Assembly (NCBI GenBank): GCA_016791285.1
Contig: JAEUMX010000168.1
Location: forward strand, 1-17,265
Source: Burkholderiales bacterium
GTDB lineage: Bacteria > Pseudomonadota > Gammaproteobacteria > Burkholderiales > JAEUMW01
Length of the DNA stretch: 17,265 nucleotides
Direction of reading: 5' to 3'
In this document: positions 3,599 through 17,265 of the stretch, piece by piece
Layout of the letters: each line of letters starts with the position of its first letter
How positions within the stretch are numbered: the stretch's first letter is position 1
The notes under the pieces: model-generated
Told to the model about the DNA's origin: nothing
What the model saw: the letters and a program-made list of their open reading frames with translations, nothing else
Database searches by the model: none
Program-made: the position numbers and the translations under genes

Positions 3599-3661
3599 CT
3601 GTCCCGTATAAAATCACGGTAGTTCAGTAGGTTATTCTCCTGTAGCGTCCGAGAGAGTCCA

Positions 3662-3691
3662 TTGACAGCCGGCTCCGGCTGTCGGTATATT
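3662..3691 (+). promoter_or_regulatory. Candidate sigma-70 promoter for the integrase with a palindromic operator
   Basis: A perfect TTGACA (3662-3667) is followed after 18 nt by TATATT (3686-3691, one mismatch to TATAAT). The spacer is almost wholly occupied by a perfect palindrome with 9-bp arms GACAGCCGG and CCGGCTGTC (3664-3672 and 3675-3683). It lies about 118 nt upstream of the integrase start and points towards it. A dimeric repressor bound there would cover both promoter elements. This is inferred from sequence only. Confidence 0.5.
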
Positions 3692-3796
3692 TGACGGTAA
3701 GTAGCGCGCTTGCTTCGCACAATACCGTCAGGCTAGACCAGGCTTCGAACAGTCCTCCTGACGGGTGTATGCCGTAAGGGTGCGGAAATACCGTCA
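3692..3796. promoter_or_regulatory. Candidate left arm-type integrase sites (TGACGGTA x3)
   Basis: The octamer TGACGGTA occurs at 3692-3699 in direct orientation and as its complement TACCGTCA at 3723-3730 and 3789-3796. The same octamer appears twice at the right end (13350-13369). Clusters of one short motif at both ends of an integrase-bearing element are the usual layout of arm-binding sites for the integrase N-terminal domain. The rest of the 3599-3808 gap also holds AGCGTCCGAGA at 3644-3654, an 11-bp echo of the core repeat. Confidence 0.5.
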
Positions 3797-3808
3797 CGGG
3801 GCTGGGAG

Positions 3809-5041
3809 ATGCTCACCGATAAGGCGATTGCGGCCGCGAAGCCGGGGTCGAAGCCGTACAAGCTTGCGGATCAAGGGGGGCTGTACCTCTTCGTCACCCC
3901 GACGGGGGGCAAGTCTTGGCGCTACGATTACCGGATCAGCGGGAGGCGCTGCACTCTGGTCCTCGGTCGCTACCCTGACGTTCCGCTACGATCGAGGCTG
4001 ACCCCCGAGGGGATCTGGATCGAGGGCGCGCGAGACCAGCATGAAGCAGCGCGCGCGCTGGTAGCCCAAGGCATCGACCCCGCAGCGAAGAAGAAGGAGG
4101 GGAAGGTGTTCGCGCGGGAATCGGCCGCGAACACCTTCCCGACGCTGGCGAAGCTGTGGAAGGGCGAGAAGGCGGCGCGCCGGTCGAACACCTGGAACGA
4201 TAACGCCACCCGCTGGCTGAAGGATGCGGAAGCTGCCTTCGGCAGCCGGCCTGCGGAGGAGATCACCCCCGCGGCCGTGCTCGCCCTGCTGGAGAAGATC
4301 AAAGCCGAACGTGGCGCCCGTTCCGCGGAGTATGCGCGCCAGACCTTCGCCGGCGTCTTTGCCGCCGGCGTCCGCACCCTGCGTGTGAAGAACAACCCGG
4401 CCCGCGAGCTCGCGGGCTGGTCAGAGATGCCACCGGCTCGCAAGCAGCGGCCCCTCTCCGTGGCGGAGTTGCCTGCCTTCCTCGCGGCCGTTGACCGGTA
4501 TCCCGGCCGACCCGAGACCCGCCTTGCGCTCGAGTTGCTGCTACTCACCTTCGTGCGGAAGCGCGAGCTCACCGAAGCGCGCTGGTCTGAGATCGACTTC
4601 GACCGTGCTATCTGGCAGATCGAAGCCGAACGTATGAAGGCGCGGGCTGCGCACATTGTCCCGCTCGCGACGCAGGCTCTCAATCGCTTTCGCGAGCTGC
4701 GCCGGCTGGCGCCGGAGCGGTCACCGTTTGTTTTCCCGAACCTGGGCAACCCCCTGCACAAGGCGATGGGCGCCTCGACGTTGAACGTCGCGATGGGTCG
4801 CATCGGCTTTGCCCACCTGCCCCCCCACGCGATTCGTGGAACCGCAAGCACGATCTTGAACGGCGCCGGCTGGGGTCGCGATGCGATCGAGAGGCAACTG
4901 GCGCACGCCGAACGCGACAAGGTCCGGGCCGCGTACAACTTCGCGGACTATCTAAAGGAGAGGACCGCAATGATGCAGGCATGGGCCGACACCCTCGACG
5001 AGTTGCGCAGCGCGGCACAACAACAACGCAGCACCTTGTAG
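3809..5041 (+). CDS. int: Tyrosine-type site-specific integrase (DUF4102 family)
   Basis: The 410-residue protein has the three-part P4-like integrase layout. The N-terminal arm-binding DUF4102 domain (about 1-85) has KPYKLADQGGLYLFVTPTG and LVLGRYPDVPL; a core-binding domain follows (about 100-200), then the catalytic domain. Catalytic residues are visible: R250 in FVRKRELTEARW, K in MKARAAHIVPL, HAIR at 340-343, H366 in QLAHAE, and the nucleophile Y376 in RAAYN. It catalyses integration at, and with help excision from, the ribE att site. The start ATG 3809 follows GGGAG, and the N-terminus MLTDKAIAAAKP matches the family start. It is adjacent to attL, as expected. No regulator fused to it is seen; the upstream palindromic promoter is the likely control point. 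Confidence 0.95.
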   Translation: MLTDKAIAAAKPGSKPYKLADQGGLYLFVTPTGGKSWRYDYRISGRRCTLVLGRYPDVPLRSRLTPEGIWIEGARDQHEAARALVAQGIDPAAKKKEGKVFARESAANTFPTLAKLWKGEKAARRSNTWNDNATRWLKDAEAAFGSRPAEEITPAAVLALLEKIKAERGARSAEYARQTFAGVFAAGVRTLRVKNNPARELAGWSEMPPARKQRPLSVAELPAFLAAVDRYPGRPETRLALELLLLTFVRKRELTEARWSEIDFDRAIWQIEAERMKARAAHIVPLATQALNRFRELRRLAPERSPFVFPNLGNPLHKAMGASTLNVAMGRIGFAHLPPHAIRGTASTILNGAGWGRDAIERQLAHAERDKVRAAYNFADYLKERTAMMQAWADTLDELRSAAQQQRSTL

Positions 5042-5053
5042 GGGGTTTGCATC

Positions 5054-5492
5054 ATGGCTGCGCGCAATTCTACTGCCGGGGACGATGCCATCATCGCCCG
5101 CGCGCTCACGATCCTCGAAGCCCGCGCCACTTACGACGGCGTCTATATGAGCGATCCGGGGGCCGTTCGGCAGTACCTGCGCCTGAAGCTGTTCGGCCTG
5201 GAGCATGAGGAATTTCATGTCGCTTGGCTTCGAGCGGCTTTTTCGGGGGACCTTGACACAGACGGCGGTATATCCCCGGGAGGTTGCCAAGTCCGCGCTG
5301 CTGCACAACGCGGCGGCTGCGATCCTGGCACACAACCACCCCGGCGGGTGCGCGACCCCGAGCAGGTCGGACATCGAGCTTACCCGCCGCCTGCGGCGAA
5401 CGTTCGAGCTCATCGACGTCAGGCTCCTCGACCATTTTGTCGTTGCTGGCGGCGAGATGGTTTCGTTCGCGGAGCGGGGGCTGTTGTTGTAG
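5054..5492 (+). pseudogene. radC: RadC-like JAB-domain protein, broken by an internal deletion/frameshift
   Basis: The first part reads from ATG 5054 (AIIARALTILEAR, then [22 protein letters not shown]). The rest of the family continues in another frame from about 5225 ([30 protein letters not shown] to [11 protein letters not shown] 5490-5492). The JAMM-type metal motif HNHPGG with the later S..D is intact in the second frame. Between HVAWL and GFERLF the family normally has about seven more residues (a DxxHRL-type segment); these are missing, so a deletion of some 20-odd nt moved the frame near 5220-5235. RadC homologues are common accessory genes of mobile elements, and their molecular role is unsettled. 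Programmed frameshifting is unlikely because residues are missing as well. Confidence 0.82.
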
Positions 5493-5501
5493 TTCACTTT
5501 C

Positions 5502-5558
5502 GCCGCGCCTAGCCCGACGGGGCGAAAACCGGGAAACCCTTCACCCGGCTGGCGCGGC
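5502..5558. repeat. Imperfect inverted repeat between radC remnant and the next gene
   Basis: The left arm GCCGCGCCTAGCC (5502-5514) pairs with GGCTGGCGCGGC (5547-5558) with one bulged T. The 32-nt loop contains a smaller CCGGG/CCCGG pairing. It sits just after the radC stop. It could be a terminator-like or RNA-processing structure, but there is no U-tract and the function is unknown. Confidence 0.35.
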
Positions 5559-5600
5559 TCCCTTCTCCGAAGGCAAAGGCCCTTGAAGGAGGGCAAGGCG

Positions 5601-6344
5601 ATGGCACACGACGAAGTCGTATTGGAGCTTCAGCGGTTCGTGCGCTTACGAGCTCAACAAGGCTCTGCAGCAGCGACCCGACTGCTGAAGCGTGGCGTCG
5701 AGATGAAACCCGTCTTCGAGAATATCGCCGAAAAGCTGCAAGTAGACGGGGGTCGACTCTTTCTCGACGCTTGCATAACCGCCGTCGAACTGGGGTCCCC
5801 TCCTGACCGGCTGCGCGAAACGTCGCTAGCCGTTGCCGATGCCAGCGCGCGGTTGCGGCGGATCGCCAAGAAAGCCCGCGATCTCGCTGAGGAACTGCTG
5901 GCCCTCGAGCGAGCCACCAATGATGTCGACTGGCCGAGCGAGGCGCAGGACCCTATGGAATTGATCGACCGTGCGGGCGGGACCATGTACCGCTGGCACG
6001 TCGGGCCGTATATCAAACCCTTGCGGGGGCGCTTCATCAACGAAGGCTATTGGCCCAGCATGGATGAGGTTCTCGACGAGCTCGCGCGCCTGGTGGAAAC
6101 GGGGACCACAGAGGCGCTCTGCGAAGCGGCTCGGTCTGCACTCAGATCGAGGGAAAGAGGCTGGCCGGACATCCTGCGCGCGCTTACGCCAAACCTGGAC
6201 CACCTGAGGCACAGCGGCTTAATTCCGAAAGACTTCGATCCGAGTAGCGAACTCCTGGCGACGGTGCTCGCCTGTGCCCTCGAGCTCGGCGAGCCGCTAG
6301 ACGCGGAGGCTGTCCGCAAAGCCCGCGCGCGATGGCGCGCCTAA
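5601..6344 (+). CDS. Hypothetical protein, 247 aa
   Basis: I do not recognise this family. The start is ATG 5601, seven bases after a strong Shine-Dalgarno GAAGGAGGG (5585-5593); the frame stays open to a TTG at 5583, but that would place the ribosome site inside the gene. The protein is soluble-looking, without a signal peptide or membrane segment. Residues about 75-110 are charged and heptad-like (SARLRRIAKKARDLAEELLALERA), followed by a central GTMYRWHVGPYIKPLRGRFINEGYWPS segment rich in aromatic residues, which may be the conserved core. A helical C-terminal half follows. It lies between the broken radC and the AlpA gene in the part of islands that often carries accessory genes. A role in regulation, replication or host defence cannot be separated from sequence alone. 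Confidence 0.7.
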   Translation: MAHDEVVLELQRFVRLRAQQGSAAATRLLKRGVEMKPVFENIAEKLQVDGGRLFLDACITAVELGSPPDRLRETSLAVADASARLRRIAKKARDLAEELLALERATNDVDWPSEAQDPMELIDRAGGTMYRWHVGPYIKPLRGRFINEGYWPSMDEVLDELARLVETGTTEALCEAARSALRSRERGWPDILRALTPNLDHLRHSGLIPKDFDPSSELLATVLACALELGEPLDAEAVRKARARWRA

Positions 6345-6351
6345 GCCAGCC

Positions 6352-6388
6352 GGACAACTCGCTGACACTCGCCGCCGGCGAGTTGTCC
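6352..6388. terminator. Perfect 11-bp inverted repeat after the 247-aa gene
   Basis: GGACAACTCGC (6352-6362) pairs perfectly with GCGAGTTGTCC (6378-6388) across a 15-nt loop, starting 8 nt after the upstream stop codon. The sequence ACTCGCC (6367-6373) within the loop can instead pair with GGCGAGT (6377-6383), giving a competing shorter hairpin. There is no run of T after it, so intrinsic termination is uncertain; an mRNA-stability or switch-like structure is equally possible. Confidence 0.4.
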
Positions 6389-6460
6389 TTACGACGCAGG
6401 TGCGCGCAGCTTATGGTCGCCTCTCCCGAGACAACCGAAATCGACCCAAGGAGGCCAGAC

Positions 6461-6664
6461 ATGCAGCCGCCGCGCTTGATCCGCTTACGTGAGGTAGTGG
6501 CCCGCACGGGTCGGTCCCGATCCATGATTTATTCCGACCCCCAGTTCCCGCGGCCGATAAAGATCGGCCCTAGGGCATCGGCATGGCTGGAAAGCGAGGT
6601 CTCGGAATGGGTTGCTGCGCGTATCGCTGCTGCGCGGTCGCCCGCAGGGGGCGACCATGGGTGA
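6461..6664 (+). CDS. alpA: AlpA-family helix-turn-helix regulator
   Basis: This 67-residue protein matches the AlpA/Cox-like DNA-binding family in size and motif: RLIRLREVVARTGRSRSMIY, FPRPIKIGPRASAWLESEVSEWVAARI. The winged HTH fills the whole protein. Family members act as excisionase-like or activator proteins of P4-type and satellite islands, often controlling integrase or primase operon expression. The start ATG 6461 follows AAGGAGG (6448-6454) at ideal spacing. The longer open frame from 6332 lacks such a site and runs through the hairpin. Its end overlaps the primase gene by 8 nt, so the two are probably co-translated. Confidence 0.9.
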   Translation: MQPPRLIRLREVVARTGRSRSMIYSDPQFPRPIKIGPRASAWLESEVSEWVAARIAAARSPAGGDHG

Positions 6665-9176
6665 TCTCGCCATAAACGAAAAGCCCTCGGAGGCTGCACC
6701 CTCCGAGGGCCTTGAGATAAACGCGCAACAACGGGCGCATCATATCGCGGCCGCGCTGCCCCCGCCACTACCTTCGAGCGGCGCCCACGGCGCCACGGTA
6801 ATCCGCTATTCGCGGGGGGCGACCATCCACGATGTGCACCCCGTCCCTTGTACGGCCGCGACGTTTCGTGACTTCTGTGCGCAGATCCTCGCGGACCGAG
6901 GCATCCGCAAGGGACAGCAGTGGTTTTCCGGCCCCTTCGGGGGGGATGGCAGTCGCTGCCGACAGAATGCGGAGCCGCGGCGATTCCTGCCAGTGGATAT
7001 CGACCACGTCGCACCCGACCGGCTGGCCGACCTGAGGTTGTGGTTCGCGCGATATGGAGGGTTTGGATATCCGACCGCCTCCTCGACACCGGACGCACCG
7101 CGCGAACGCGCTGTGCTGGAGCTCTCCCGGGACGCGACCCGCGACGAGTGCGTCTCGATTGGGGCAGTTCTGGCGCGCGACCTGGGCGAAGAGTTCGGGG
7201 CCGACGTCGCACTCGATGTTTCCGTTTTTCGCAACGAGCAGCCGGTCTACTGTCCCTTGAAGGGAGCCAAGGCGGTCTTCTACACCGGCGAGCCGCTCGA
7301 AGTTGATGTTCTGATCGAGAGCGCCACGCGCGGCGATGGGCGCACGGCAGCCGATCGCGCTCCGGCCGGCGGCAAGCATATCGACGACGAGATCGAACGC
7401 ATCCGCAGCACGTTTGACTACCTGGGCGATGCTGACGACCGCGAGGTATGGCTCGCTGTTGGGATGTCGCTCCACGAGGGTACGGGCGGATCCAAACAGG
7501 GATTCCTGTTGTGGTGTTCGTGGGCGGAGCGCTCCGCGAAGTTCAACCTGGAGGACTCGGCACGCACCTGGGCATCCTTCGGTCGCGGAAAGCAGCGGCG
7601 CACCTTGGCGTCACTGTTCTACGTTGCGCGTGAGCGTGGATGGAGAGACGGCGCGACGCTGGAGGCTCCCGCCGAGGCCTGGGGCGAGCTCCTGCTCCCT
7701 TCCAGCGTCGCGCTCCCTGAGCTTCCGTGCTTGCTGATCCGCGGCCCCGTCGGCGCTATGGCGGCTGCCGTGGCCGAGATGACGCAAACACCGACCGCGC
7801 TCTCGACGCTGATTGTCCTGAGCATCTGCGCCACCGCGGTTCAGAAGGCCTTCGTCGTGCAGCCGACCCCGCTGGCCGACTACGTCGAACCGCTTTCTCT
7901 ATGGGCGTTGTGCGGGTGCGGTTCCGGTACCCGAAAGACCGCCGTGTTGCGCGAGCTCTTGGGGCCCGTAGTCGCGTGGCAGGAGGCCGAGCGCAAGCGC
8001 CTCGGACCCGAGATTGCCGGCCGTTTCGCTGCAAGAGCCGTTGCCGAAAAGGTGATCGAGCGCCTGAAGGCCGATGCTGCGAAAACGAAAGACCGCGCAG
8101 AGCGGAAGGAGCTCGAAGCGCAGATCCGCGGCGAGAAGGAGGCCATGCCGGCCGAGCTGCACGCGCCGGTGCTGGTCGTGAGCGATATCACCCCGGAGGC
8201 AGCTCAGCGGCTGTTGCAGCAAAACGACGGCGTGCTCTCCATCATTTCTGACGAGGGCGCCCTCCTCGACGTGATGGCAGGCGCCTACGGCGATCGCGCG
8301 ATGGTGGACGTGTTCCTGGCGGGTCATTCCGCATCGCCCGTCCACGTGGAACGGCAGTCCCGTTCCGTGCATTTGGAGCGAGCCTGTCTTTCCGTCGGGT
8401 TGCTCGTGCAGCCCGGGGTCCTGCAGGAGCTCGGCGAGGTTAAGAGACTCCGCGACAAGGGGGTATGTGCCCGATTCCTTTTCGCGCTTCCGGATTCGAC
8501 AGTTGGCCGCCGCGATCCGCGGAAGCAGACTGCGATCGGCAGTGACGTACGCGCCGCGTACTCGAGACGGATGACCGAGTTGCTGGATTATGCGGGGCGA
8601 AGTGCGGGAATCACCCGCGTGGGCTTTTCCGCCGCGGCCGCGGAAGTGTTCTTTGCCTTCGCGGAGCGGGTCGAACCCATGCTCGGCCCCCGCGGCGCGC
8701 TGGGGGCGCTGGCAGATTGGGGCGGCAAGTTGCCTGGCGCCATGGCCAGGGTTGCTGCACTGATGGCGCTTGCCGATCGTGGGGCGCCCTCACCCCTGGC
8801 TGGAGCAATCGAGGTTACGGAAGTCGACGCGAACAACGCCGTGGCGTTGTGCGATGCACTGATCGCGCACGCACGCGCAGCGTTCCGCATGATGGAGACG
8901 GACCAGGTGGAAGTTGATGCGCTGGCGTTGCTGCGATGGATCGTCGAGAGCGGGGGCATCACCGAGTTCAAGCGCTCAGCGGCCCAGAAGGCGCTCGAAG
9001 GACGGTTCCGAACCGTGGAGCGACTGAAGGCAGCGGCGGAACGTCTTGCCGAGTGGAACGCGATATCCGCTGAGCGGTGGAAGCGCAATGCGAATGCCCG
9101 GCCTTCCGTGTACTACGCCGTGAACCCGGAGGTCCACGCACGCGGGTTATTCGATGTTTCGAGAAATTCGCAGTAA
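6657..9176 (+). CDS. Primase/helicase-like replication protein (PriCT-2 and DUF3987)
   Basis: The 839-residue protein has three parts. An N-terminal region (about 55-230) resembles primase-polymerase-type domains of satellites, with acidic FLPVDIDH. A PriCT-2 primase C-terminal domain (about 243-328) has DDREVWLAVGMSLHEG and FLLWCSWAERSAKF. A DUF3987 region (about 355-760) has a Walker A-like GCGSGTRKT at 420-428, an EKVIERLKADAAKTKDRAER coiled segment, and SDEGALLD as a likely acidic ATPase motif. Such proteins start replication of mobile elements. The start ATG 6657 overlaps alpA; AGGGGGCG precedes it. A strong hairpin (6683-6710) falls inside its first 18 codons, which is unusual. The 259-nt repeat region downstream may be its origin. 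The family assignment is good; the separate activities are inferred. Confidence 0.85.
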   Translation: MGDLAINEKPSEAAPSEGLEINAQQRAHHIAAALPPPLPSSGAHGATVIRYSRGATIHDVHPVPCTAATFRDFCAQILADRGIRKGQQWFSGPFGGDGSRCRQNAEPRRFLPVDIDHVAPDRLADLRLWFARYGGFGYPTASSTPDAPRERAVLELSRDATRDECVSIGAVLARDLGEEFGADVALDVSVFRNEQPVYCPLKGAKAVFYTGEPLEVDVLIESATRGDGRTAADRAPAGGKHIDDEIERIRSTFDYLGDADDREVWLAVGMSLHEGTGGSKQGFLLWCSWAERSAKFNLEDSARTWASFGRGKQRRTLASLFYVARERGWRDGATLEAPAEAWGELLLPSSVALPELPCLLIRGPVGAMAAAVAEMTQTPTALSTLIVLSICATAVQKAFVVQPTPLADYVEPLSLWALCGCGSGTRKTAVLRELLGPVVAWQEAERKRLGPEIAGRFAARAVAEKVIERLKADAAKTKDRAERKELEAQIRGEKEAMPAELHAPVLVVSDITPEAAQRLLQQNDGVLSIISDEGALLDVMAGAYGDRAMVDVFLAGHSASPVHVERQSRSVHLERACLSVGLLVQPGVLQELGEVKRLRDKGVCARFLFALPDSTVGRRDPRKQTAIGSDVRAAYSRRMTELLDYAGRSAGITRVGFSAAAAEVFFAFAERVEPMLGPRGALGALADWGGKLPGAMARVAALMALADRGAPSPLAGAIEVTEVDANNAVALCDALIAHARAAFRMMETDQVEVDALALLRWIVESGGITEFKRSAAQKALEGRFRTVERLKAAAERLAEWNAISAERWKRNANARPSVYYAVNPEVHARGLFDVSRNSQ
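6683..6710. promoter_or_regulatory. GC-rich hairpin within the first codons of the primase gene
   Basis: GCCCTCGGAGG (6683-6693) pairs perfectly with CCTCCGAGGGC (6700-6710) around a 6-nt loop, preceded by AAAA and followed by CTTGAG. It has the shape of an intrinsic terminator whose T-tract has been altered to keep the reading frame. It could act as an attenuator, lower translation, or be an ex-terminator captured into the coding sequence by N-terminal extension. Confidence 0.5.
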
Positions 9177-9221
9177 AGATCAAAGAAAAGGGTTTTTTTT
9201 CATATGTCTCCACGTAAGGGA

Positions 9222-9316
9222 GTGCGCCCCCTGTCGAATAACTCGAATAACTCGAAGAACTGCACAAAAAATAGGCGGTTATTCGAGTTATTCGAGTTAT
9301 TCGACAGGGGGCGCAC
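9222..9316. repeat. Perfect 35-bp inverted repeat with 9-bp TTCGA iterons (candidate origin or packaging site)
   Basis: The arms are 9222-9256 and 9282-9316, identical as reverse complements over 35 bp, with a 25-nt AT-richer loop. Each arm has three TTCGA units at an exact 9-bp period (right arm at 9282, 9291 and 9300; mirrored in the left arm at 9234, 9243 and 9252), next to a G-rich block GGGGGCGCAC. It lies in the 9177-9435 non-coding gap between the primase and small-terminase genes, preceded by T8 at 9193-9200. A diverged copy occurs at 13274-13313. Iterons beside a primase gene suggest a replication origin; the position before a small terminase gene also allows a packaging site, and a bidirectional terminator cannot be excluded. 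Confidence 0.75.
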
Positions 9317-9322
9317 CCTCCA

Positions 9323-9421
9323 CCACGGGGCGCGGCGGGTCCTTCCCCCGTGGGCTGTGTGCGCACGAAACGCGCGCGGAAAAGCGCTAGCGTCTGGTCG
9401 AAAGGTTACTGGTCACTGGTC
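9323..9421. other. Rest of the 9177-9435 non-coding region: small hairpin and TGGTC repeats
   Basis: After the large inverted repeat there is CCACGGGG (9323-9330) pairing with CCCCGTGG (9346-9353) across 15 nt. Next come two tandem ACTGGTC units (9408-9421), with a related TCTGGTC about ten bases upstream, just before the small-terminase start at 9436. The tandem units could be an operator for the morphogenesis operon. No convincing promoter pair was found. Confidence 0.3.
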
Positions 9422-9435
9422 AATAAGGCATTGAT

Positions 9436-9990
9436 ATGGCTGATGAATGGCTATCTCTGCGCGAGTTCGCGCGACGGCATAGCGTCGCGTTGAACGCGGT
9501 GCAGGAGGCAATCACCTCCGGGCGCATCTCCGCGGCTGCGGTGCGCCGGGACGCGGCCGGACGGCTGGTGGCCGTTGACGAGCAGAGGGCGCTGGTAGAC
9601 CTCCATGAGAACACTTCACCTTCCGCGAGAACGTCGAAGGCCTGGGCTGCCACAGGCGGCAACGAGGCCGCCGCCGAGGATGATCCCTCAGACCCGAGCT
9701 ACCGTGCTTCGCGGGCGAAGCGCGAGAGGCACCAGGCCGACATTGCCGAGCTCGACTACCTGCAGCGCGTGGGCAAGCTGGTGGACGCTGGCGCCGTCGA
9801 TCGCGAGATCACCGAGAGCCTTACCCGAGTCATGACCAGCGTGATGCGCATCGCCGACCGCAAGGCGCAGATCCTCGCTGCCGAGACCGACCCCAACCGT
9901 GTGCACAAGATCCTGACGGCGGAATTCCGGGCCGCATTCGATGAGTGTTCACGGGCCTTTGCCGCCGCATCCAAGTCGGGGAGCGAATGA
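9436..9990 (+). CDS. Nu1-like phage terminase small subunit
   Basis: This 184-residue protein has an N-terminal HTH-like part (about 5-35, LSLREFARRHSVALNAVQEAITSGRI) and a VDEQRAL-type wing. A disordered linker rich in S, A, E and D follows (about 55-90). The helical C-terminal part contains SRAKRERHQADIAELDYLQRVGKLVDAG and a final helical domain. That order is typical of lambda Nu1-type small terminases, which recognise packaging DNA and recruit the large subunit. No large terminase is in the element, so it would have to work with a helper phage's enzyme. The start ATG 9436 has only a weak AAGG upstream. Its end overlaps the next gene as ATGA. The family assignment is moderately firm. Confidence 0.72.
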   Translation: MADEWLSLREFARRHSVALNAVQEAITSGRISAAAVRRDAAGRLVAVDEQRALVDLHENTSPSARTSKAWAATGGNEAAAEDDPSDPSYRASRAKRERHQADIAELDYLQRVGKLVDAGAVDREITESLTRVMTSVMRIADRKAQILAAETDPNRVHKILTAEFRAAFDECSRAFAAASKSGSE

Positions 9991-10424
9991 ACCCGTTTGC
10001 GCCGCGTGACCCGCTGCCGGCGCTTGAGGCGTTGCGCGAGCTGGTGAGGCGGTCCGACCACGATGATGTCCGCCTGCGGTTGTGGCTCGATCGCGGGCTC
10101 GCGGACTTCCTCGCCGGCCGAGTCGATTCACTCGACGCGGCCCTCGGCCTGCCGACACCAGCCGCGCGCCGAAGGGCGGAATGCGAGCAGATGCGCCTCG
10201 TCGCCCTGCGCTTGGTGTTGCTCGCTGGCTGGCCGCCCGAGGTTTCGCTCACCCGCCGCGTTGGGCGGCTGAGCGCTCTGCTTCGCGGCGCCCCTCGGCT
10301 CCCCGGAGAAAAGGATGTGCGAGCCGCGCTCGCAAACATGCCGTTCCGGATCCCGACCTCACCGCGCAGGCTGTGGGACTTGGTGCCGGCGGCGCTTTCA
10401 ACCAACCTGGAGATTCTGAAATGA
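9987..10424 (+). CDS. Hypothetical phage-type protein, 145 aa
   Basis: I do not recognise this protein. The start ATG 9987 overlaps the terminase stop (ATGA), and its own stop overlaps the following gene the same way; the frame is open upstream to 9945 but that would overlap the terminase gene by 46 nt. It is helical and rich in L and R, with a conserved-looking LRLWLDRGLADFLAG segment near residues 28-42 and RRAECEQMRLVALRLVLLAGWPP around 58-80. There are no membrane or signal features. Its place between small terminase and capsid genes suggests a role in particle assembly or size control, but this is inference from position only. Confidence 0.72.
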   Translation: MNPFAPRDPLPALEALRELVRRSDHDDVRLRLWLDRGLADFLAGRVDSLDAALGLPTPAARRRAECEQMRLVALRLVLLAGWPPEVSLTRRVGRLSALLRGAPRLPGEKDVRAALANMPFRIPTSPRRLWDLVPAALSTNLEILK

Positions 10425-10870
10425 CAACGCCACCCAACCCATCCCCAATCAGCACCGCCATTTCAAAGGTGCGCCTGGCTGTCGTTGACCATACCGAACG
10501 CGGCGTGCTGCTTCGCCTCGAGAGCTACGGCGAGCCTTCTCTCGACGTGGACATCGGCGACGACGCTCCGAACTTGGCCGCTGCGCTGCTCAAGACCTGG
10601 GGCGAGTGGCGGGCGAAGGATGCCCCTGCGGCTCACCAGGAAGCGCTGGAAGCTATCCGCGTCTTCGCGCATACCGCTATCCGCTTGGCGGCGGCTGCAT
10701 GCGAGCATGGCGCGAATGCAGCGCTCGCAGAGGCCGACGGACCTGGTGAGCTCGCCGTCGAACTCACAAAGGCGACGGACCTCGTGCGCATGGCCGTGAG
10801 CGGCGACATCGACCCCGGCACCGAAGCCATCCTCGATCGGCTGGCACTGCAAGAAACGACTGACGATTAG
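10421..10870 (+). CDS. Hypothetical protein, 149 aa
   Basis: Family not recognised. The ATG 10421 overlaps the previous stop as ATGA; the frame upstream of it is open only as a shadow of the previous gene. The N-terminal part (VRLAVVDHTERGVLLRLESYGEPSLDVDIGDD) looks like a small beta-rich domain. Residues about 55-149 are alpha-helical and acidic, ending in ETTDD. No catalytic motif, signal peptide or membrane segment is visible. It belongs to the morphogenesis operon by coupling and direction. Sixteen bases separate its stop from the next ATG, the only gap in that run of genes. Confidence 0.7.
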   Translation: MTTPPNPSPISTAISKVRLAVVDHTERGVLLRLESYGEPSLDVDIGDDAPNLAAALLKTWGEWRAKDAPAAHQEALEAIRVFAHTAIRLAAAACEHGANAALAEADGPGELAVELTKATDLVRMAVSGDIDPGTEAILDRLALQETTDD

Positions 10871-10885
10871 TGCAGTAGCGGGTGC

Positions 10886-11167
10886 ATGGGGCATGCTCCC
10901 TCCATGCATCCGGAAGCCGCCCGCATTCGCGAGATCGAGCTTGACCAGGCCGAGCACCTGCTCGGCCGCTTCGCCCTGGGGAATCGCGGCCCCGCTCGCG
11001 AGGCGGCGCATGTCGCGCTCGCCGCCCTGAGGCTGTCCCGCCGGCTCGAGCGCGCCGAAGTCACGCGGCGGACATTCCGAAATCGGCCGATACCGGAGGC
11101 TCACTTGACGAGCCTGCTAGGCTGGCTGCGGCAAACCATCGTCTCCATCAAGCTGAGAAACCCATGA
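10886..11167 (+). CDS. Hypothetical small basic protein, 93 aa
   Basis: Family not recognised. ATG 10886 or the in-frame ATG 10904 could be the start; neither has a strong ribosome site. The protein is helical and basic (LSRRLERAEVTRRTFRNRPIPEAHLTSLLGWLRQTI). Its stop overlaps the start of the capsid fusion gene as ATGA, so it may serve mainly to couple translation into that gene, or be an assembly factor. Its reality rests on the overlap at its end and on lack of any other frame here. Confidence 0.6.
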   Translation: MGHAPSMHPEAARIREIELDQAEHLLGRFALGNRGPAREAAHVALAALRLSRRLERAEVTRRTFRNRPIPEAHLTSLLGWLRQTIVSIKLRNP

Positions 11168-13056
11168 CCGACTTGTCGATCTCGACCCGCGTTGAGCTCC
11201 CTCTACAAACCCGCCTCGCGCCCGTCGGCGCCGTCAACGCCGGGGCGCGGACCGCTGAGCTCACCTGGACCACTGGCTGCGCCGTGCGGCGATGGAGTTG
11301 GCAGCGAGGCGCGGAATATTGGGAGGAACTCTCCCTCGATCCGGGGCATGTGCGCATGGACCGACTGCGCAGCGGCGCGCCGCTGCTAGCGGTTCACGCC
11401 GCCTTTTCGCTTGACGGCGTGATAGGCGTTGTCGAACGCGCCGAGCTCTCAGGCGGGCGAGGCGTTGCCACGGTGCGCTTCTCGGATCGCGAGGACGTCG
11501 AGCCCGTGTTTCGCGACGTTCAAAACAAGATCATCAGAAACGTTTCCTGCGGCTACGTCGTACATCGCATGCTCGACACCGGCGAGACGCGCGACGGGCT
11601 GCCGGTCTATCGCGCGACCGACTGGGAGCCGATGGAGCTCTCGCTGGTCCCGATCAATGCCGACGCCGGCGCCCAAGTCCGCAGCGAATCGAGCGGCAAG
11701 CGTTATCCCTGTGAAATTGCACAACCCCGAGGAGCAAAAGTCATGGAACACACAGCAGCCCCCGCCGAGGGCATCAGCAACACCCAAGCGACCCTTGCCG
11801 AGCGTGAGCGCGTCTCGTACATCGCCGCCCATGTACGCGAGCACCCGCTCCTCACCGCCGAGGATCAGCGCAAGTGGATCGAGGACGGCACGCCGTGGGA
11901 GACGGTCCGGGAACAGGCATTGGAGAAGCTGGTCGCGCGCCAGCACGTTACCCGGCGCTACGACCCCTACGCAGAAGGCATGAGCCGGATGGATTACGCC
12001 TCGCCGACTGTGCAACGCCAACTCATGGTCGAAGCGATCTCGTGTCGCCTTCTCGGCACGCAGCCATCCGAGGCGGCGCGCCCGTTCGCCAACAAACGCC
12101 TGACCGACCTGGCGGGCGACGTGCTGCGCTGGCGCGATGTCAACGTCAACCACATGAGCCCGAATCGGGTTATGACTAGGGTATTCCAGTCCAACAGCGA
12201 TTTCCCTGGAATTTTGGCCGACGCGCAGGGCAAAGCCATGCTCGACATCTTCCAGGGCGTTGCGAGCGGCATCAAGATCGCAGCCCGAAAGACCAGTGCC
12301 CCTGACTTCAAACAAAGGGCGCTCGTTCGTCTGTCTGAAGCGGGCGCCCTGGAGAAGGTGCTGCCAGGCGCCGAGATCAAGCACGGCTTCTTCACCGACT
12401 CGAAGACGACGTACGGACTTGTCACTTACGCCAAAATCTTCGGCGTCAACCGGCAGGCGATTGTCAACGACGATTTGAACGCGTTCCGCGATATCCCTCG
12501 GGCCATGGCGCTCTCCGCTGCGGAAGTCGAGGCCGCGGAGCTCGCGGGCCTGATCAACGCGAACCCGCAGACATATGACGGCGTCGCAACGTTCCACGCA
12601 ACGCACAGCAACCTGGCCGCATCCGGTGCCGCGATCGATGTCACCACCTTGGGGGCCGGCCAGGCTGCGCTGCGCCTGCAGAAGGGCATCGCCGGCGTGG
12701 TCCCCCTGGGTCTCGCCGCGCGCTATCTGGTGGTCCCGGCGGCATTGGAAGGACGGGCGTTGCAGTACGTCGCGACGCTGACGCCTGCGCAGGCAGCGAA
12801 CGTCAATCCGTTCGCGTCGAAACTGGAAGTGGTTGTGGACCCGCGCCTTGACGCCACGTCGGCAACCGCCTGGTATCTGGCCGTCGATCCAAGCCTCGCG
12901 CCTTCCATCGAGTACTGCTACCTGGAAAACGAGGAAGGTCCTCAGGTTTCCACCAGGGACGGCTGGGATGTCGAAGGCATGGAGTTCAAGGTCAGGCTCG
13001 ACTATGCCTGCTCGATTATCGACTGGCGTGGGCTGTACAAGAACCCCGGCGCCTAA
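11164..13056 (+). CDS. Prohead protease / major capsid protein fusion (Mu gpT-like capsid)
   Basis: In this 630-residue fusion, residues about 1-185 are a U35-type prohead protease: PLLAVHAAFSLDGVIGVVER carries the catalytic His (H78) and NKIIRNVSCGYVVHR the catalytic Ser (S128), followed by YRATDWEPMELSLVPINADAG. Residues about 195-270 (EGISNTQATLAERERVSYIAAHV...) are a charged scaffold-like linker, usually removed by the protease. Residues about 280-630 resemble the Mu-like major head subunit gpT, with HGFFTDSKTTYGLVTYAKIFGVNRQAIVNDD (shown over two segments of the protein) and FKVRLDYACSIIDWRGLYKNPGA at the end. It would self-assemble into a procapsid and mature by self-cleavage. ATGA overlap with the gene before. 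It appears intact and is the last gene of the island. Confidence 0.9.
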   Translation: MTDLSISTRVELPLQTRLAPVGAVNAGARTAELTWTTGCAVRRWSWQRGAEYWEELSLDPGHVRMDRLRSGAPLLAVHAAFSLDGVIGVVERAELSGGRGVATVRFSDREDVEPVFRDVQNKIIRNVSCGYVVHRMLDTGETRDGLPVYRATDWEPMELSLVPINADAGAQVRSESSGKRYPCEIAQPRGAKVMEHTAAPAEGISNTQATLAERERVSYIAAHVREHPLLTAEDQRKWIEDGTPWETVREQALEKLVARQHVTRRYDPYAEGMSRMDYASPTVQRQLMVEAISCRLLGTQPSEAARPFANKRLTDLAGDVLRWRDVNVNHMSPNRVMTRVFQSNSDFPGILADAQGKAMLDIFQGVASGIKIAARKTSAPDFKQRALVRLSEAGALEKVLPGAEIKHGFFTDSKTTYGLVTYAKIFGVNRQAIVNDDLNAFRDIPRAMALSAAEVEAAELAGLINANPQTYDGVATFHATHSNLAASGAAIDVTTLGAGQAALRLQKGIAGVVPLGLAARYLVVPAALEGRALQYVATLTPAQAANVNPFASKLEVVVDPRLDATSATAWYLAVDPSLAPSIEYCYLENEEGPQVSTRDGWDVEGMEFKVRLDYACSIIDWRGLYKNPGA

Positions 13057-13121
13057 GAGCATTACACCCCCTTCGCGCGAGACCTGGGGGACCATAGCGC
13101 GCGGGGGACTGTCGAGGGGGC

Positions 13122-13197
13122 GGGGGTCTCTCCCCCTTCGATCAATGGTCGCCCAGGCGTCCGGCCCTCTTGTCGCGGATGATGGCAAGAGGGCCGG
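13122..13197. terminator. Hairpins downstream of the capsid gene
   Basis: GGGGG (13122-13126) and CCCCC (13132-13136) form a tight stem around TCTCT. Further on, CCGGCCCTCTTG (13161-13172) pairs perfectly with CAAGAGGGCCGG (13186-13197) around a 13-nt loop. The 12-bp stem is the better terminator candidate for the morphogenesis operon, though no T-run follows it. The rest of 13057-13426 holds no gene; its other signals are listed separately. Confidence 0.45.
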
Positions 13198-13273
13198 GCA
13201 ACGCGCTCCCGCCCCGGCCGATCACGCCTGTCAGGAGCGCGACCCCCTCTCGACATCACCTCCGAGGACTTTT

Positions 13274-13313
13274 TTCGATTAATTCGATTTTTTCGACGGG
13301 GGGCGCGCACTCC
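13274..13313 (+). repeat. Diverged copy of the TTCGA-iteron/G-block motif at the island's right end
   Basis: TTCGA units at 13274, 13283 and 13292 keep the exact 9-bp period of the 9282-9316 arm. They are followed by GACGGGGGGCGCGCACTCC, matching the GACAGGGGGCGCACCCTCC of that arm closely. The spacer bases have diverged (T-rich). A second copy in one small island suggests that one protein binds both sites. Confidence 0.65.
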
Positions 13314-13349
13314 CTGCGGACGATTCTCGATCTTCAATCGCGCGCCGGC

Positions 13350-13369
13350 TGACGGTACGGCTGACGGTA
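13350..13369 (+). promoter_or_regulatory. Candidate right arm-type integrase sites (TGACGGTA x2)
   Basis: TGACGGTA occurs at 13350-13357 and 13362-13369, as tandem 12-bp units GCTGACGGTACG and GCTGACGGTACA, 58 bp before attR. The same octamer occurs three times near attL. Confidence 0.55.
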
Positions 13370-13390
13370 CAGCAAGCAACGCCAAGATGT

Positions 13391-13419
13391 TTAACGCCGA
13401 CAGATCAAACCCTTACAAT
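13391..13419 (+). promoter_or_regulatory. Candidate outward-facing promoter at the island's right end
   Basis: TTAACG (13391-13396, 4 of 6 to TTGACA) and TACAAT (13414-13419, 5 of 6 to TATAAT) are 17 bp apart. They point out of the island through attR to the cas6 remnant and the CARF operon. The match is modest and unproven. Confidence 0.35.
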
Positions 13420-13426
13420 GCCCATT

Positions 13427-13477
13427 GACCTGATCGCCCGTTACGTCGAGCGGTTGCTGACAGCGTCCGAGAACGTC
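13427..13477 (+). repeat. attR: 51-bp direct repeat, detached copy of the ribE end
   Basis: The copy is identical to 3545-3595. In the ribE frame it continues as CGT TGA (13478-13483), so the pre-insertion ribE product probably ended ENVR. Sequence to the right is therefore the old chromosomal neighbour of ribE. Confidence 0.92.
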
Positions 13478-13550
13478 CGTTGAATGCCGCGCCCACCCGA
13501 ATTGCTGCGGCTGGTCCTGGACACGGCGTTACGCGTCGAGCGCCAATCGC

Positions 13551-13881
13551 GTCGTTGGCGCCGGTGATCTGCGCTTTGCGGACCTATTAACCGAGCTGAC
13601 GGCGCCGGCGCGCGAAGTCGAATTCCAGCGGACGGCTTCGAGTTGCGTGACTGGACGCGTTACTCCTCGCGCCAGAAGGCCACCATGCAGTTGGAGGGCG
13701 TAGTCGACGAAGCCAGGCTCGGCGGCGACGGATCGATTCGTTCTCGCCGTACCTGTGGCTCGGGCAGTTCATCCACGCGGGGTACAACGCGAGCATGGGG
13801 CTTGGGCGTTACCGAGTCGAAGCCGCAAGCTTGCGGGGTGATCCCCTGAGCCCCTTCGTCGGCGATACTTCGAGGTCATGA
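13551..13881 (+). pseudogene. cas6: Decayed cas6 (CRISPR RNA endonuclease) C-terminal remnant
   Basis: Three frames read together give a Cas6 C-terminal half: VVGAGDLRFADLLTEL (frame of 13551), then DGFELRDWTRYSSRQ and KATMQLEGVVDEA (frame of 13643), then DSFSPYLWLGQFIHAG and YNASMGLGRYRVEA to TGA 13879-13881. WxRYSSRQ with MxLEG and the glycine-rich GLGRYR end are hallmarks of Cas6, which cuts pre-crRNA. Two frameshifts, near 13630 and near 13730, break it, and the N-terminal half is absent: the 13478-13550 stretch before it contains only a 27-codon frame from ATG 13484 with no Cas6 likeness. Its stop overlaps the start of the next gene as ATGA, so it was the first gene of the following operon. 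Sequencing errors are the alternative to true decay. Confidence 0.8.
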
Positions 13882-15002
13882 ACGCCCCGCAGCCGAACGA
13901 ACCCGCAAGCTATCCCCGCCGCGTCCTGCTTGCAGCGACCGGGCTGTCGCCCCAGGTGGTCACCGAGACGGTCTACGCGCTCGCCGTGCAAGCGCAGTGT
14001 GCCTTCGTTCCCACCGAGATCCACCTGGTTACAACCAAACAGGGCAAGGAACACGCGCGACTCAATCTCCTCTCCGGCGATCCGGGCTGGTTTCAGCGAC
14101 TGCGTGCCGACTACGCGCTGCCCGAGATCGCGTTCGATGCCGGGCGCATCCATGTGCTCACAGGGCCTGACGGGGCGCCGCTCGCCGATATCCGCACGCC
14201 CGAGGAGAATGAGCACGCCGCCGACACGATCACCCGGCTCGTCGCAGAGTTCACGGCGGACACCAGTGCGGCGCTCCACGTCTCGCTCGCCGGCGGGCGC
14301 AAGACCATGGGCTATTACCTCGGTTACGCGCTGTCGCTGTTCGGACGGCCGCAAGACCGTCTCTCCCACGTGCTCGTCTCGGCGCCATTCGAATCGCATC
14401 CCAGGTTCTTCTACCCGACACCGGGCGAGTGTGTCATCCACACCCTCGAGTCGCGCCCGCTCGACTGCCGCGACGCCGTCGTGACCTTGGCGCAGATTCC
14501 CTTCGTGCGCCTGCGCGACGAACTGCCGCCCCGTCTCCTCGGCGGAAATGCACGCCTCACCGAGATCGTGACCGCCGCGAACCGCGCGCTGCAGCCGCCG
14601 CGGCTCACGCTGGATACGATGCAGCGCCTGGCCTCCGCCGACGATCAGCCGCTGTCGCTGGGGCGGACCGAGTTCGCCGTCCTGCTTTGGCTCGCCGAGC
14701 GCGCGCGTGCGGGAGCACCCGAAGTCGACTGGACCCGTCCCGAAGCCGCGGACGAGTTTCTGGGCGTTGCCCGGCGCATCTTCAACCCGATGGGCGCGGA
14801 GTACGAGCGCATCGAGAAGGCGGTCGACTGGCGGAGGTCCGCCGCGATCAAGCTCGGCAAGTATTTCGAGCCCCACAAGTCGCGCATCAACGACGCCATC
14901 GAGCGCGCGCTGGGTGCAGTCGCCGCCCGCCGCTATGCGATCCCGCCGCGAGGGCCCAACGGGCTTCCCCTTGCCGGCGAGCAGATCGAGATCCGCCCAT
15001 GA
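13878..15002 (+). CDS. CRISPR-associated CARF protein, NE0113/TIGR02584 family (ring-nuclease/Csm6-like annotation)
   Basis: The 374-residue protein begins with the family signature LLAATGLSPQVVTETVYAL (about 17-35) and has SLAGGRKTMG at 136-145, the CARF loop that binds cyclic oligoadenylate. Families with this N-terminus occur with type III CRISPR systems and are annotated as CRISPR-associated ring nucleases (Csm6/Csx group). A second domain (about 250-374) looks helical, ending HKSRINDAIERAL, and could be a winged-helix part. No HEPN RxxxxH motif of a Csm6 RNase is visible, so it may degrade or sense the second messenger rather than cut RNA. The start ATG 13878 overlaps the cas6 remnant's stop; its stop overlaps DUF2130 as ATGA. 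Confidence 0.85.
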   Translation: MNAPQPNEPASYPRRVLLAATGLSPQVVTETVYALAVQAQCAFVPTEIHLVTTKQGKEHARLNLLSGDPGWFQRLRADYALPEIAFDAGRIHVLTGPDGAPLADIRTPEENEHAADTITRLVAEFTADTSAALHVSLAGGRKTMGYYLGYALSLFGRPQDRLSHVLVSAPFESHPRFFYPTPGECVIHTLESRPLDCRDAVVTLAQIPFVRLRDELPPRLLGGNARLTEIVTAANRALQPPRLTLDTMQRLASADDQPLSLGRTEFAVLLWLAERARAGAPEVDWTRPEAADEFLGVARRIFNPMGAEYERIEKAVDWRRSAAIKLGKYFEPHKSRINDAIERALGAVAARRYAIPPRGPNGLPLAGEQIEIRP

Positions 15003-16180
15003 CCGACACAGTTCTCACGTGCCCCAATTGCGGTCACGACATCCCGCTCAACGAGGCCCTGACCGCGCAACTGCGTGGCGAGCTCGAGGCCGGGATGCGC
15101 GTCGAACACGAAACGCGGCTAAAGCAGGCGATGGTCGAAGCAGAGGCGCGCGCGCGGCTGCAAGCCGAACAGGCTGCAGTACATGCTCGCGAATCCGCCG
15201 ACAGGGACCTCACGTTTCTGCAGGACCAGCTAACCGAGCAGCAACGCAAGGTGCGCACTGCCCAGGCGGCGGAACTCGTCTTGCGCAAAGAGAAGGCGGC
15301 GCTGGAGGAACACGCCCGCGACGTGGATCTCGAAATCGCCCGGCGTGTCGATGCCGAGAGGCAGCGCCTCGAGGAGTCCGTGCGCAAGTCCGCGGCCGAG
15401 GAACAGGCGCTCAAGCTCCGCGAGAAGGACAAGCAGATCGACGATCTCAAGAAGCTCGTCGACGAGATGAAGCGCAAGAGCGAGCAGGGTTCTCAAGAGC
15501 TGCAGGGCGAAGCGCTCGAGCTCGACATTCAGGCCGCCCTCGAACGGCAGTTTCCCCATGACATGATTCGCCCTGTGCCCAAGGGCATCACCGGGGCCGA
15601 CCTTGTCCAGGAGGTGCGTAACGACCAAGGCACGGTTTGCGGACGCATCGTGTGGGAAACCAAGAACACCCGCCACTGGCAACACGGCTGGCTAGCCAAG
15701 CTGCGCGACGACATGCGTGCGGTGCCGGGCAATCTCGCCGTCCTGGTCTCGGTCGCGCTGCCGTCGGGCCTGCACGAGTTAGGTCTCTTGGAGGGTGTGT
15801 GGATCGTCAGCCCGCGTGCTTGGCCGGCCCTCGCCGTGGCGCTGCGAGAGCAACTGATCCAGGTCGCCTTCGCCCACGCGGCGGGGGAAGGCAAGAACGA
15901 GAAAATGGAGCTTCTCCATCGATACCTTGCAGGCGACCAGTTTTGTGCAAAAGTGCAGGGAATCGTCGAGGCCTTCTCTGCGCTGCAGGACGAACTCCAG
16001 CGCGAACGCCGTGCGATGGAGCGGATCTGGAAGGAGCGCGAGAAGCAGATCGAGCGGGTCGTCCTCAACACCGTCGGCATGTACGGCGAGATGCGCGGCA
16101 TTGTCGGCAGCAGTTTGCCGGAGATCCCGGCCCTCACCCTCGAAGGGGCGGCGGGGTTGCTGGAGGGGGAGCCGGCATGA
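14999..16180 (+). CDS. DUF2130 protein: zinc knuckle, coiled coil and putative PD-(D/E)XK nuclease domain
   Basis: The 393-residue protein opens with CPNCG (C8, C11), a half zinc ribbon. A long charged coiled coil spans about 22-168 (EAEARARLQAEQAAVHARES and similar). The DUF2130 core (about 170-335) holds E171/E174 in GEALELDIQ, D201 in GITGADLVQE, and E220/K222 in GRIVWETKNT, an arrangement like the E-D-ExK site of PD-(D/E)XK nucleases. A second coiled coil follows (about 330-360), ending in a hydrophobic IPALTLEGAAGLLEG tail. The function of DUF2130 is not established. ATGA overlaps at both ends place it between two CARF genes, suggesting it acts in the same CRISPR signalling response, perhaps as a nuclease. 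The catalytic reading is inference. Confidence 0.82.
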   Translation: MTDTVLTCPNCGHDIPLNEALTAQLRGELEAGMRVEHETRLKQAMVEAEARARLQAEQAAVHARESADRDLTFLQDQLTEQQRKVRTAQAAELVLRKEKAALEEHARDVDLEIARRVDAERQRLEESVRKSAAEEQALKLREKDKQIDDLKKLVDEMKRKSEQGSQELQGEALELDIQAALERQFPHDMIRPVPKGITGADLVQEVRNDQGTVCGRIVWETKNTRHWQHGWLAKLRDDMRAVPGNLAVLVSVALPSGLHELGLLEGVWIVSPRAWPALAVALREQLIQVAFAHAAGEGKNEKMELLHRYLAGDQFCAKVQGIVEAFSALQDELQRERRAMERIWKEREKQIERVVLNTVGMYGEMRGIVGSSLPEIPALTLEGAAGLLEGEPA

Positions 16181-17265
16181 ATCCCCAAGTTCACGTGCTG
16201 GTCGTCTCCGAGCAGGCTGCGCCGAACTTGCTGCCGGCCCTCGATCCGAACCTCAAGCCGGCTGAGGCCGTGCTTGTCGTCTCCAGCAAGATGAAGTCGC
16301 GGGCATGCGACCTGGAAGCAGTATTTGCCGAATCTGGGGTGAGAACGACCCGCGTCCACTTGGAGAACGAGCACGATTTCGCCCGGCTGCAAGACGCCTT
16401 GCTTGAAGTCGCCGCTGCCCGCAGCGGGCAAAGCATCGCATTGAACGTCTCGGGTGGCACCAAATTGATGGCCTTGGCCGCGCAGAACGTCGCCGCCGCG
16501 GCAGGCTGGCAAGTCTTCTATGTGGACCTCGACACCGACGATGTCATCTGGCTTGGCGGGAAGGTGCGCCGCCAACCGCTCACCGAGCACTTGCGGCTGC
16601 GCCATTACCTGCGCGGATACGGGTTCACGCCGGGGGAAACGATCCAGCGGCCGCAGCCAAGCCCACGTCACGACGATCTGCTCCGAACCCTCGTGGCGCA
16701 GGCAGGGAGTCTGGAGCAGCCACTCGCACACTTGAACTTCCTGGCACAGCAAGCGCAAGATCGCGGTCAGCTGGATGTCATCCTCTCGGTCGAGCAAATG
16801 GACAGTCGTGGCCTGGAGGCACTGCTCAGGAACTTTCAGGATGCAGGCGTGCTGACTGTCGACGGAAGCACGCTGCGTTTCGCGAATGAAGCTGAACGCA
16901 GCTTCGCGAAAGGTGGGTGGTTGGAGACCCACGCGTTTCGCACCGTCAGCGCGTTGACGGGCGAACTCGGGTTGCGGGACAAGGCGGCAAACCTCGTCGT
17001 GCTCGACAGAAACCGCGTGAAGAACGAGCTCGACGTGGTATTCATGGCGCGCAATCGCCTTTTCGTCATCGAATGCAAGACGGCACGCATGGACAGATCC
17101 GAGGCGCCCAAAGCTAACGACACGCTGTTCAAGCTATCCGAAATCTGCCGACGCGTCGGCGGCTTGGGCACGCGCGGCATGCTGGCGAGCTATCGGCGCG
17201 TGGGCGAGGCGGAGAGGCGGCTGGCGGCCGCGCTCGGCATCGAGGTGGTCTGCGGCGCGGCCCTG
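16177..17265 (+). CDS. can2: Card1/Can2-type CARF-nuclease (DUF1887), 3' end cut by window
   Basis: The frame is open from ATG 16177 to the window edge, 363 residues. The N-terminal CARF domain (about 1-140) has VLVVSSKMKSRA and NVSGGTKLMALAAQN at 90-104, the classic ligand loop. A linker and wHTH-like part follow. The C-terminal PD-(D/E)XK domain shows GGWLE (E250), NELDVVF (D286) and FVIECKT (E299, K301). Card1/Can2 enzymes are activated by cyclic tetra-adenylate made by Cas10 and cut DNA and/or RNA, halting phage or cell growth. The start overlaps the DUF2130 stop as ATGA. Only the last few tens of residues should be missing. All visible catalytic residues are present, so it is probably active. 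Confidence 0.93.
   Translation, partial: MNPQVHVLVVSEQAAPNLLPALDPNLKPAEAVLVVSSKMKSRACDLEAVFAESGVRTTRVHLENEHDFARLQDALLEVAAARSGQSIALNVSGGTKLMALAAQNVAAAAGWQVFYVDLDTDDVIWLGGKVRRQPLTEHLRLRHYLRGYGFTPGETIQRPQPSPRHDDLLRTLVAQAGSLEQPLAHLNFLAQQAQDRGQLDVILSVEQMDSRGLEALLRNFQDAGVLTVDGSTLRFANEAERSFAKGGWLETHAFRTVSALTGELGLRDKAANLVVLDRNRVKNELDVVFMARNRLFVIECKTARMDRSEAPKANDTLFKLSEICRRVGGLGTRGMLASYRRVGEAERRLAAALGIEVVCGAAL

Follow-up and report, generated by a model that had tools for sequence, protein, structure and literature searches.

A DUF2130 protein, predicted to be a nuclease, is a recurrent neighbor of NE0113 and Cas10 in type III CRISPR loci

What does a DUF2130 gene do when it lies between two genes of CARF families linked to type III CRISPR (clustered regularly interspaced short palindromic repeats) systems? 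The question is raised by a 17,265-nt stretch of contig JAEUMX010000168.1 (hereafter the window; coordinates are window positions), in which three genes on one strand are joined by short overlaps:

13878..15002, + strand: NE0113-family CARF protein (TIGR02584/PF09623), 374 amino acids (aa)
14999..15002, + strand: ATGA overlap of NE0113 and DUF2130, read directly
14999..16180, + strand: DUF2130 protein (PF09903), 393 aa
16177..16180, + strand: ATGA overlap of DUF2130 and Card1, read directly
16177..17265, + strand: Card1/Can2-type CARF nuclease, 363 codons, no stop before the window end, last residues missing

We find that DUF2130 is a recurrent, clade-concentrated neighbor of NE0113 and Cas10, and that it stands in a slot of the operon used by effectors activated by cyclic oligoadenylate (cOA). 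Comparison of gene neighborhoods makes it very probably a type III accessory gene, and its modeled structure points, with somewhat less assurance, to a nuclease effector. We give about even chances to the fuller reading, in which DUF2130 serves the type III response as an ancillary nuclease, gated via NE0113 and often working alongside a CARF effector; gating at the protein level is a more tentative element of it.

Both ATGA junctions and the gene coordinates given in a preliminary description of the window were confirmed, and the assignment of the outer two genes to type III-linked CARF families is borne out by profile matches. The first gene (13878–15002) matches TIGR02584 (E 5.3e-70, 235.7 bits; cut-off 80.65) and PF09623 (160.4 bits), and the second (14999–16180) PF09903, DUF2130 (217.1 bits; cut-off 26.7). 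The third matches PF23400 CARF_Card1 (46.3 bits; cut-off 24.6), PF09002 Card1_endonuc (79.7 bits; cut-off 26.4), and the PADLOC family CARF4--CARF_PDDEXK (339.6 bits); by sequence, its nearest solved structures are VC1899 (1xmx, 8.8e-32) and Can2 (7bdv, 4.4e-29).

With a 27-sequence DUF2130 alignment as query, a search of GTDB at one genome per species returned 75 loci (L numbers; G numbers denote genomes), which were labeled type III-linked when NE0113 or Cas10 lay within the fetched stretch. Seventeen of the 75 carry the label; they come from 16 genomes, since contigs L037 and L062 belong to the same one. They span four phyla (Alpha-, Beta-, and Gammaproteobacteria, Nitrospira, Acidobacteria, and Syntrophorhabdus) and both Csm and Cmr systems. 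The suggestion that the neighborhood recurs in unrelated taxa with cas10 is thereby upheld, and an adjacency confined to this genome is rejected. Cas10 and DUF2130 share a contig in 11 loci (L001, L006, L008, L009, L013, L018, L020, L039, L062, L066, and L071). Loci L002 (with cas6), L012, and L037 are linked through NE0113, with no Cas10 in the stretch, as are L014 and L032 (with a RAMP gene and a CARF-deaminase gene). Locus L007 was labeled "other" and not counted, though the opposite strand has a cas6-like gene ~3 kb from it. No relatives were found in IMG/VR, and neither the window nor any of the 75 loci showed a CRISPR array in a crude test requiring three exact 22-mers.

In 10 other genomes, drawn from several phyla, NE0113 lies directly upstream of DUF2130 on the same strand, at spacings from −4 to +63 bp (4-bp overlaps in two). 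This regularity argues against DUF2130 being a mobile defense-island gene that was inserted in type III operons and has no role in the response, a reading we consider very improbable. The arrangement varies elsewhere. A Cas_APE2256 CARF gene stands between NE0113 and DUF2130 in two Nitrospira loci (L006, L008), cas6 and a small gene separate them in L013, and in L032 NE0113 is downstream of DUF2130, after a Cad1-type CARF-deaminase. Two short contigs read DUF2130-Csx1-Cas10 (L009) and cas6-small gene-DUF2130-Cmr1-like RAMP-Cas10 (L018); in both L013 and L018, the small gene lying between cas6 and DUF2130 has no convincing likeness to anything searched (best E 0.055). That DUF2130 is locked between two CARF genes, as had been proposed, is true of the window; as a rule, the recurring unit is the NE0113-DUF2130 pair. 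A fixed NE0113-DUF2130-Card1 triplet was rejected: Card1 is immediately 3′ in one of the 16 relative genomes (L004, where its open reading frame [ORF] is short, at 290 aa, and near the contig end) and lies elsewhere in the locus in L001, L013, and L037/L062. The defined stoichiometry and the control by both sensors that the preliminary description also put forward stay conjectural.

Searches also covered 49 whole genomes (a set that leaves out L049). DUF2130 is present in all 49 and NE0113 in 19, the two share a contig in 14, and DUF2130 is near a clear Cas10 in ten. The Cas10 palm profile PF22335 scores above its cut-off in 28 of the 49, a count that includes weak, GGDEF-like matches, as the profile also matches GGDEF proteins (it scores in an E. 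coli control); a 27.3-bit match 59 kb from DUF2130 on the same contig of G021 was excluded from the ten. The pairing exceeds chance: between the best 120 DUF2130 and the best 120 NE0113 homologues there are 17 exact coincidences in longest-contig size, versus a mean of 0.7 and a maximum of 6 in 2000 jittered controls.

How common is the association? We drew 369 genomes evenly from the class of G001, which we take to be Gammaproteobacteria in GTDB. NE0113 is above its cut-off in 31 and DUF2130 in 36; four genomes have both. The genes are adjacent in G001, the center genome, picked for having the pair, and in G133, where DUF2130 precedes NE0113; they are on separate contigs in G396 and G409. With both present in four of 369 genomes and adjacent in two, the link is a minority trait of both families, which favors an inserted gene without a role. 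The DUF2130 tree argues in the other direction. It holds 69 proteins, from 67 of the 75 loci, the window, and L145; left out were L062 (the second part of the L037 gene), the fragments L064, L067, L070, and L074, and the distant L072, L073, and L075. Some rows carry extra N-terminal residues because each ORF was taken to begin at the first start codon that follows a stop. Eighteen of the 69 proteins are type III-linked, and 15 of these fall in one 20-row set (Shimodaira–Hasegawa-like approximate likelihood ratio test support 95) beside five others. L066 pairs separately with L145 inside a 27-row set, and L039 is far apart, in a place that is unsure because its row is a 194-aa C-terminal piece only. 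The type III label requires seven changes on the tree (at least six forced by well-supported branches) versus 16.1 in shuffles, a pattern that can mean several recruitments, or fewer gains plus losses. Distances among NE0113 and DUF2130 proteins are also correlated (Mantel r 0.39, p 0.0008, 14 loci). This would count against an inserted gene too, though shared descent alone may explain it.

The place of DUF2130 in the operon bears on its role. We surveyed what follows NE0113 in 30 of 31 NE0113 stretches of the class-wide sample; these represent 28 of its 31 NE0113 genomes (without L143, where no NE0113 ORF was found, and without genomes G001, G246, and G300). A common order is cas6-NE0113-(slot)-Cmr1/Cas10. 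Twelve stretches have nothing in the slot; it holds Csx1 in three (L149, L154, L155), Card1 in one (L148), and an unannotated gene in two; ahead of NE0113 are Csx1 in two stretches and DUF2130 in one. The other nine could not be assigned, being at contig ends or having no cas neighbor recognized by the few profiles used. The two unannotated slot genes, L141:2137-2883 (249 aa) and L140:8031-8513 (161 aa), lie between NE0113 and Cas10/Cmr1 and have no Pfam or PADLOC match. DUF2130 occupies a slot where cOA-activated effectors can sit. The proposal that it is a new effector is strengthened to the extent that Csx1 or Card1 holds the same slot in some other NE0113 loci. The Cas10s beside DUF2130 keep the GGDD cyclase motif in ten of 11 cases, the eleventh being truncated by a contig end, which suggests that cOA signaling is likely intact.

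The protein itself looks like a nuclease. It has an N-terminal CPxCG motif, a single long helix at residues 19–184 (a coiled-coil stalk), and a PD-(D/E)XK core at ~165–293. The structure model (predicted local distance difference test score, pLDDT, 81; predicted template modeling score, pTM, 0.39) gives a core with a close fold match to 1xmx, 8bao, and 8q41, and the acidic residue and ExK motif expected of PD-(D/E)XK nucleases are present. The candidate catalytic residues D201, E220, and K222 are invariant in all 27 alignment rows; E220 and K222 are found in 71 of 77 DUF2130 rows, and the remaining six are without the region (a deletion in L066; fragments in L062, L064, L067, L070, and L074). 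DUF2130 is therefore predicted to be a coiled-coil PD-(D/E)XK nuclease. Searches for a sensor domain found no CARF or SAVED match: Pfam gave DUF2130 only, NCBIfam 20.0 had no model for the window protein, and PADLOC-DB 2.0.0 gave only weak LmuB matches, in the helical part. A cOA-sensing domain of its own is not obligatory for a type III effector, since NucC is listed without CARF or SAVED in passages of PMC9704534. The fold, which is Hjc-like, could also be that of a helper or repair nuclease without gating, one that acts on DNA already nicked by Card1 or by the HD domain of Cas10, or that protects the host, with no cOA switch. We regard this as improbable, because the slot of DUF2130 is used by cOA effectors and because the cell would need to tolerate an ungated nuclease.

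If DUF2130 is gated, NE0113 is the candidate sensor. The window protein combines a CARF domain (~14–225) with an OmpR-like winged helix (~241–365), an architecture described, in part of PMC4012209, as CARF plus winged helix without a catalytic effector. Its winged helix suggests that NE0113 may be a transcription regulator. Were it cOA-responsive in the manner of Csa3, it would control, via the operon, the amount of the DUF2130 nuclease and not its activity. This appears unlikely to us: the NE0113 gene is often within the operon, after cas6 and before Cas10, and the helix-turn-helix (HTH) of a CARF protein need not regulate genes, Csx1 being CARF-HTH-HEPN in the relevant part of PMC9704534. 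In the reading we prefer, that of a nuclease gated via NE0113, Cas10 would make cOA, the effector-less NE0113 would bind it, and NE0113 would, acting in trans, release the DUF2130 nuclease or recruit it; the sensor and the nuclease that are fused in Card1/Can2 would here be split over two genes. Contact would be our first choice for how NE0113 unlocks DUF2130, with raised expression a close second; DUF2130 would then cut nucleic acid, often beside a conventional CARF effector. A stricter version, in which the two proteins form a cOA-gated nuclease that is a split relative of Card1/Can2, its subunits held together by the coiled coil of DUF2130 and the winged helix of NE0113, is doubtful. If true, it would supply an in-trans effector for the "effector-less" NE0113 family.

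Several observations weigh against an NE0113-gated nuclease. Nearly all relatives are metagenome bins, where mis-binning of CRISPR islands can occur. Cas10 was not seen in the window, which ends inside the third gene; the Cas10 of this locus, if present at all, lies beyond the window, and the cas6 here is broken. Most sampled DUF2130s and NE0113s occur apart, and 51 of the 69 DUF2130s on the tree are labeled as outside type III loci. No NE0113 is found on the short contigs of L009 and L018, nor in the genome bin of L018 (G017). In 12 of the 30 stretches surveyed NE0113 is followed directly by Cas10 or Cmr1; it does not, then, exist only for DUF2130. Nine DUF2130 loci, including the window, also encode a known CARF effector: Card1 or a related CARF-nuclease (window, L001, L004, L013, L037/L062, L039), Csx1 (L009, L066), or a CARF-deaminase (L032). 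For this reason DUF2130 may be an adjunct; no CARF effector was seen among the genes scanned in L020 and L071. Foldseek alone gave no DUF2130 match at E ≤ 0.001, and among the best 120 matches of a joined query (candidates of 0.55–1.75 × 488 aa) there was no CARF-DUF2130 fusion. The part with E220 and K222 is deleted in L066, L039 has an in-frame stop, and L071 is gapped before the core yet keeps E220 and K222; these decayed or shortened copies also speak for an inserted gene with no role in the response.

Comparison with known systems helps place the pair. Card1/Can2 (DUF1887) is a cA4 (cyclic tetra-adenylate)-activated nuclease of CARF-PD-(D/E)XK architecture. It shares with DUF2130 a PD-(D/E)XK core of close fold, the slot beside NE0113 (in L148), and, in the window, an adjoining gene, whereas DUF2130 has a CPxCG knuckle and a long helix and no CARF domain that we could find. 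Csx1 (CARF-HEPN) shares the position directly after NE0113 (L149, L154, L155), but is an RNase with its own CARF sensor, unlike DUF2130, which is predicted to be a PD-(D/E)XK nuclease without one. Csa3 resembles NE0113 in having CARF and a winged helix with no catalytic effector; according to passages of PMC9704534 it is often in type I-A systems, whereas NE0113 is in type III operons and, in this clade, coupled to DUF2130. CoCoNuT type IV restriction superoperons, as presented in PMC11090510, likewise have coiled-coil nucleases adjoining CARF genes, but form a McrBC-like GTPase system; the main text of that paper makes no mention of DUF2130, COG4487, or NE0113.

In the literature searched, DUF2130 appears in three papers, none with CRISPR in its title, PF09903 appears in one, and COG4487 is joined with CRISPR in one genome report. 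Catalogues of type III accessory genes may already list DUF2130; they reportedly include those of Shmakov et al. in 2018, Makarova et al. in 2020, and Shah et al., the last on new type III cas families. It is not named in the main text of Hoikkala et al. 2024 (PMC11229360), by term count. The same paper reports 133 type III loci whose Cas10 bears a cyclase but is nuclease-deficient and which lack any known or credible effector, so undiscovered type III effectors are to be expected. The DUF2130 loci are probably outside those 133, given that the neighboring Cas10s mostly have an HD pair near the N-terminus. The repeated occurrence of this little-studied family in the effector position, with no sensor domain found in it, suggests a new kind of helper enzyme for the type III immune response. 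The role of effector-less CARF proteins in type III loci is a wider question, and a sensor-less nuclease family beside one of them offers a concrete, testable pair.

Other genes were seen near type III-linked DUF2130s. In L020, DUF2130 and the first RAMP gene flank an ADP-ribosylglycohydrolase gene, and a gene of the PADLOC candidate families PDC-S23/PDC-S05 (17458-18678, 412 bits) lies between RAMP genes of the Cmr locus. The gene between DUF2130 and Cas10 in L008 (6079-6720) has a weak AbiEii-like match (33 bits). A DndA/SspA-like cysteine desulfurase gene (L039:7220-8365) is upstream of the type III-A locus with NE0113 and the stop-containing DUF2130.

Upstream of the three genes, the window carries what is left of cas6:

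13484..13833, + strand: cas6 remnant, C-terminal half only, split over several frames (cas6 profile)

Against a profile of 27 cas6 proteins from related loci, its frame pieces score 8.1, 3.9, 26.7, and 47.8 bits, in order over profile positions 190–330. Before it, at 3545–13477, is a phage-satellite-like element whose two ends are marked by a perfect 51-bp direct repeat of the 3′ end of ribE. The element carries an integrase, an int-alpA RNA, an excisionase-like gene, a DUF3987 primase/helicase, a small terminase, and a fused protease-major capsid protein. In the stretch 13478–13877, the cas6 remnant comes directly after the right copy of this repeat (the attachment, or att, site), beginning within 10 bases of it; the ribE 3′ end is therefore a neighbor common to the type III fragment and the phage-like element. 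The type III fragment may itself be an earlier arrival at this site.

Outside CRISPR loci, a DUF2130 gene overlaps an AAA_15 (OLD-like) ATPase gene by 4 bp (L036:4871-8061), and may represent another defense pairing of this nuclease family. Among plasmids, 10 records have NE0113. DUF2130 matches occur in 44 plasmid records, all <60% identical, and are frequent on those of Bradyrhizobium (31 of the 44).
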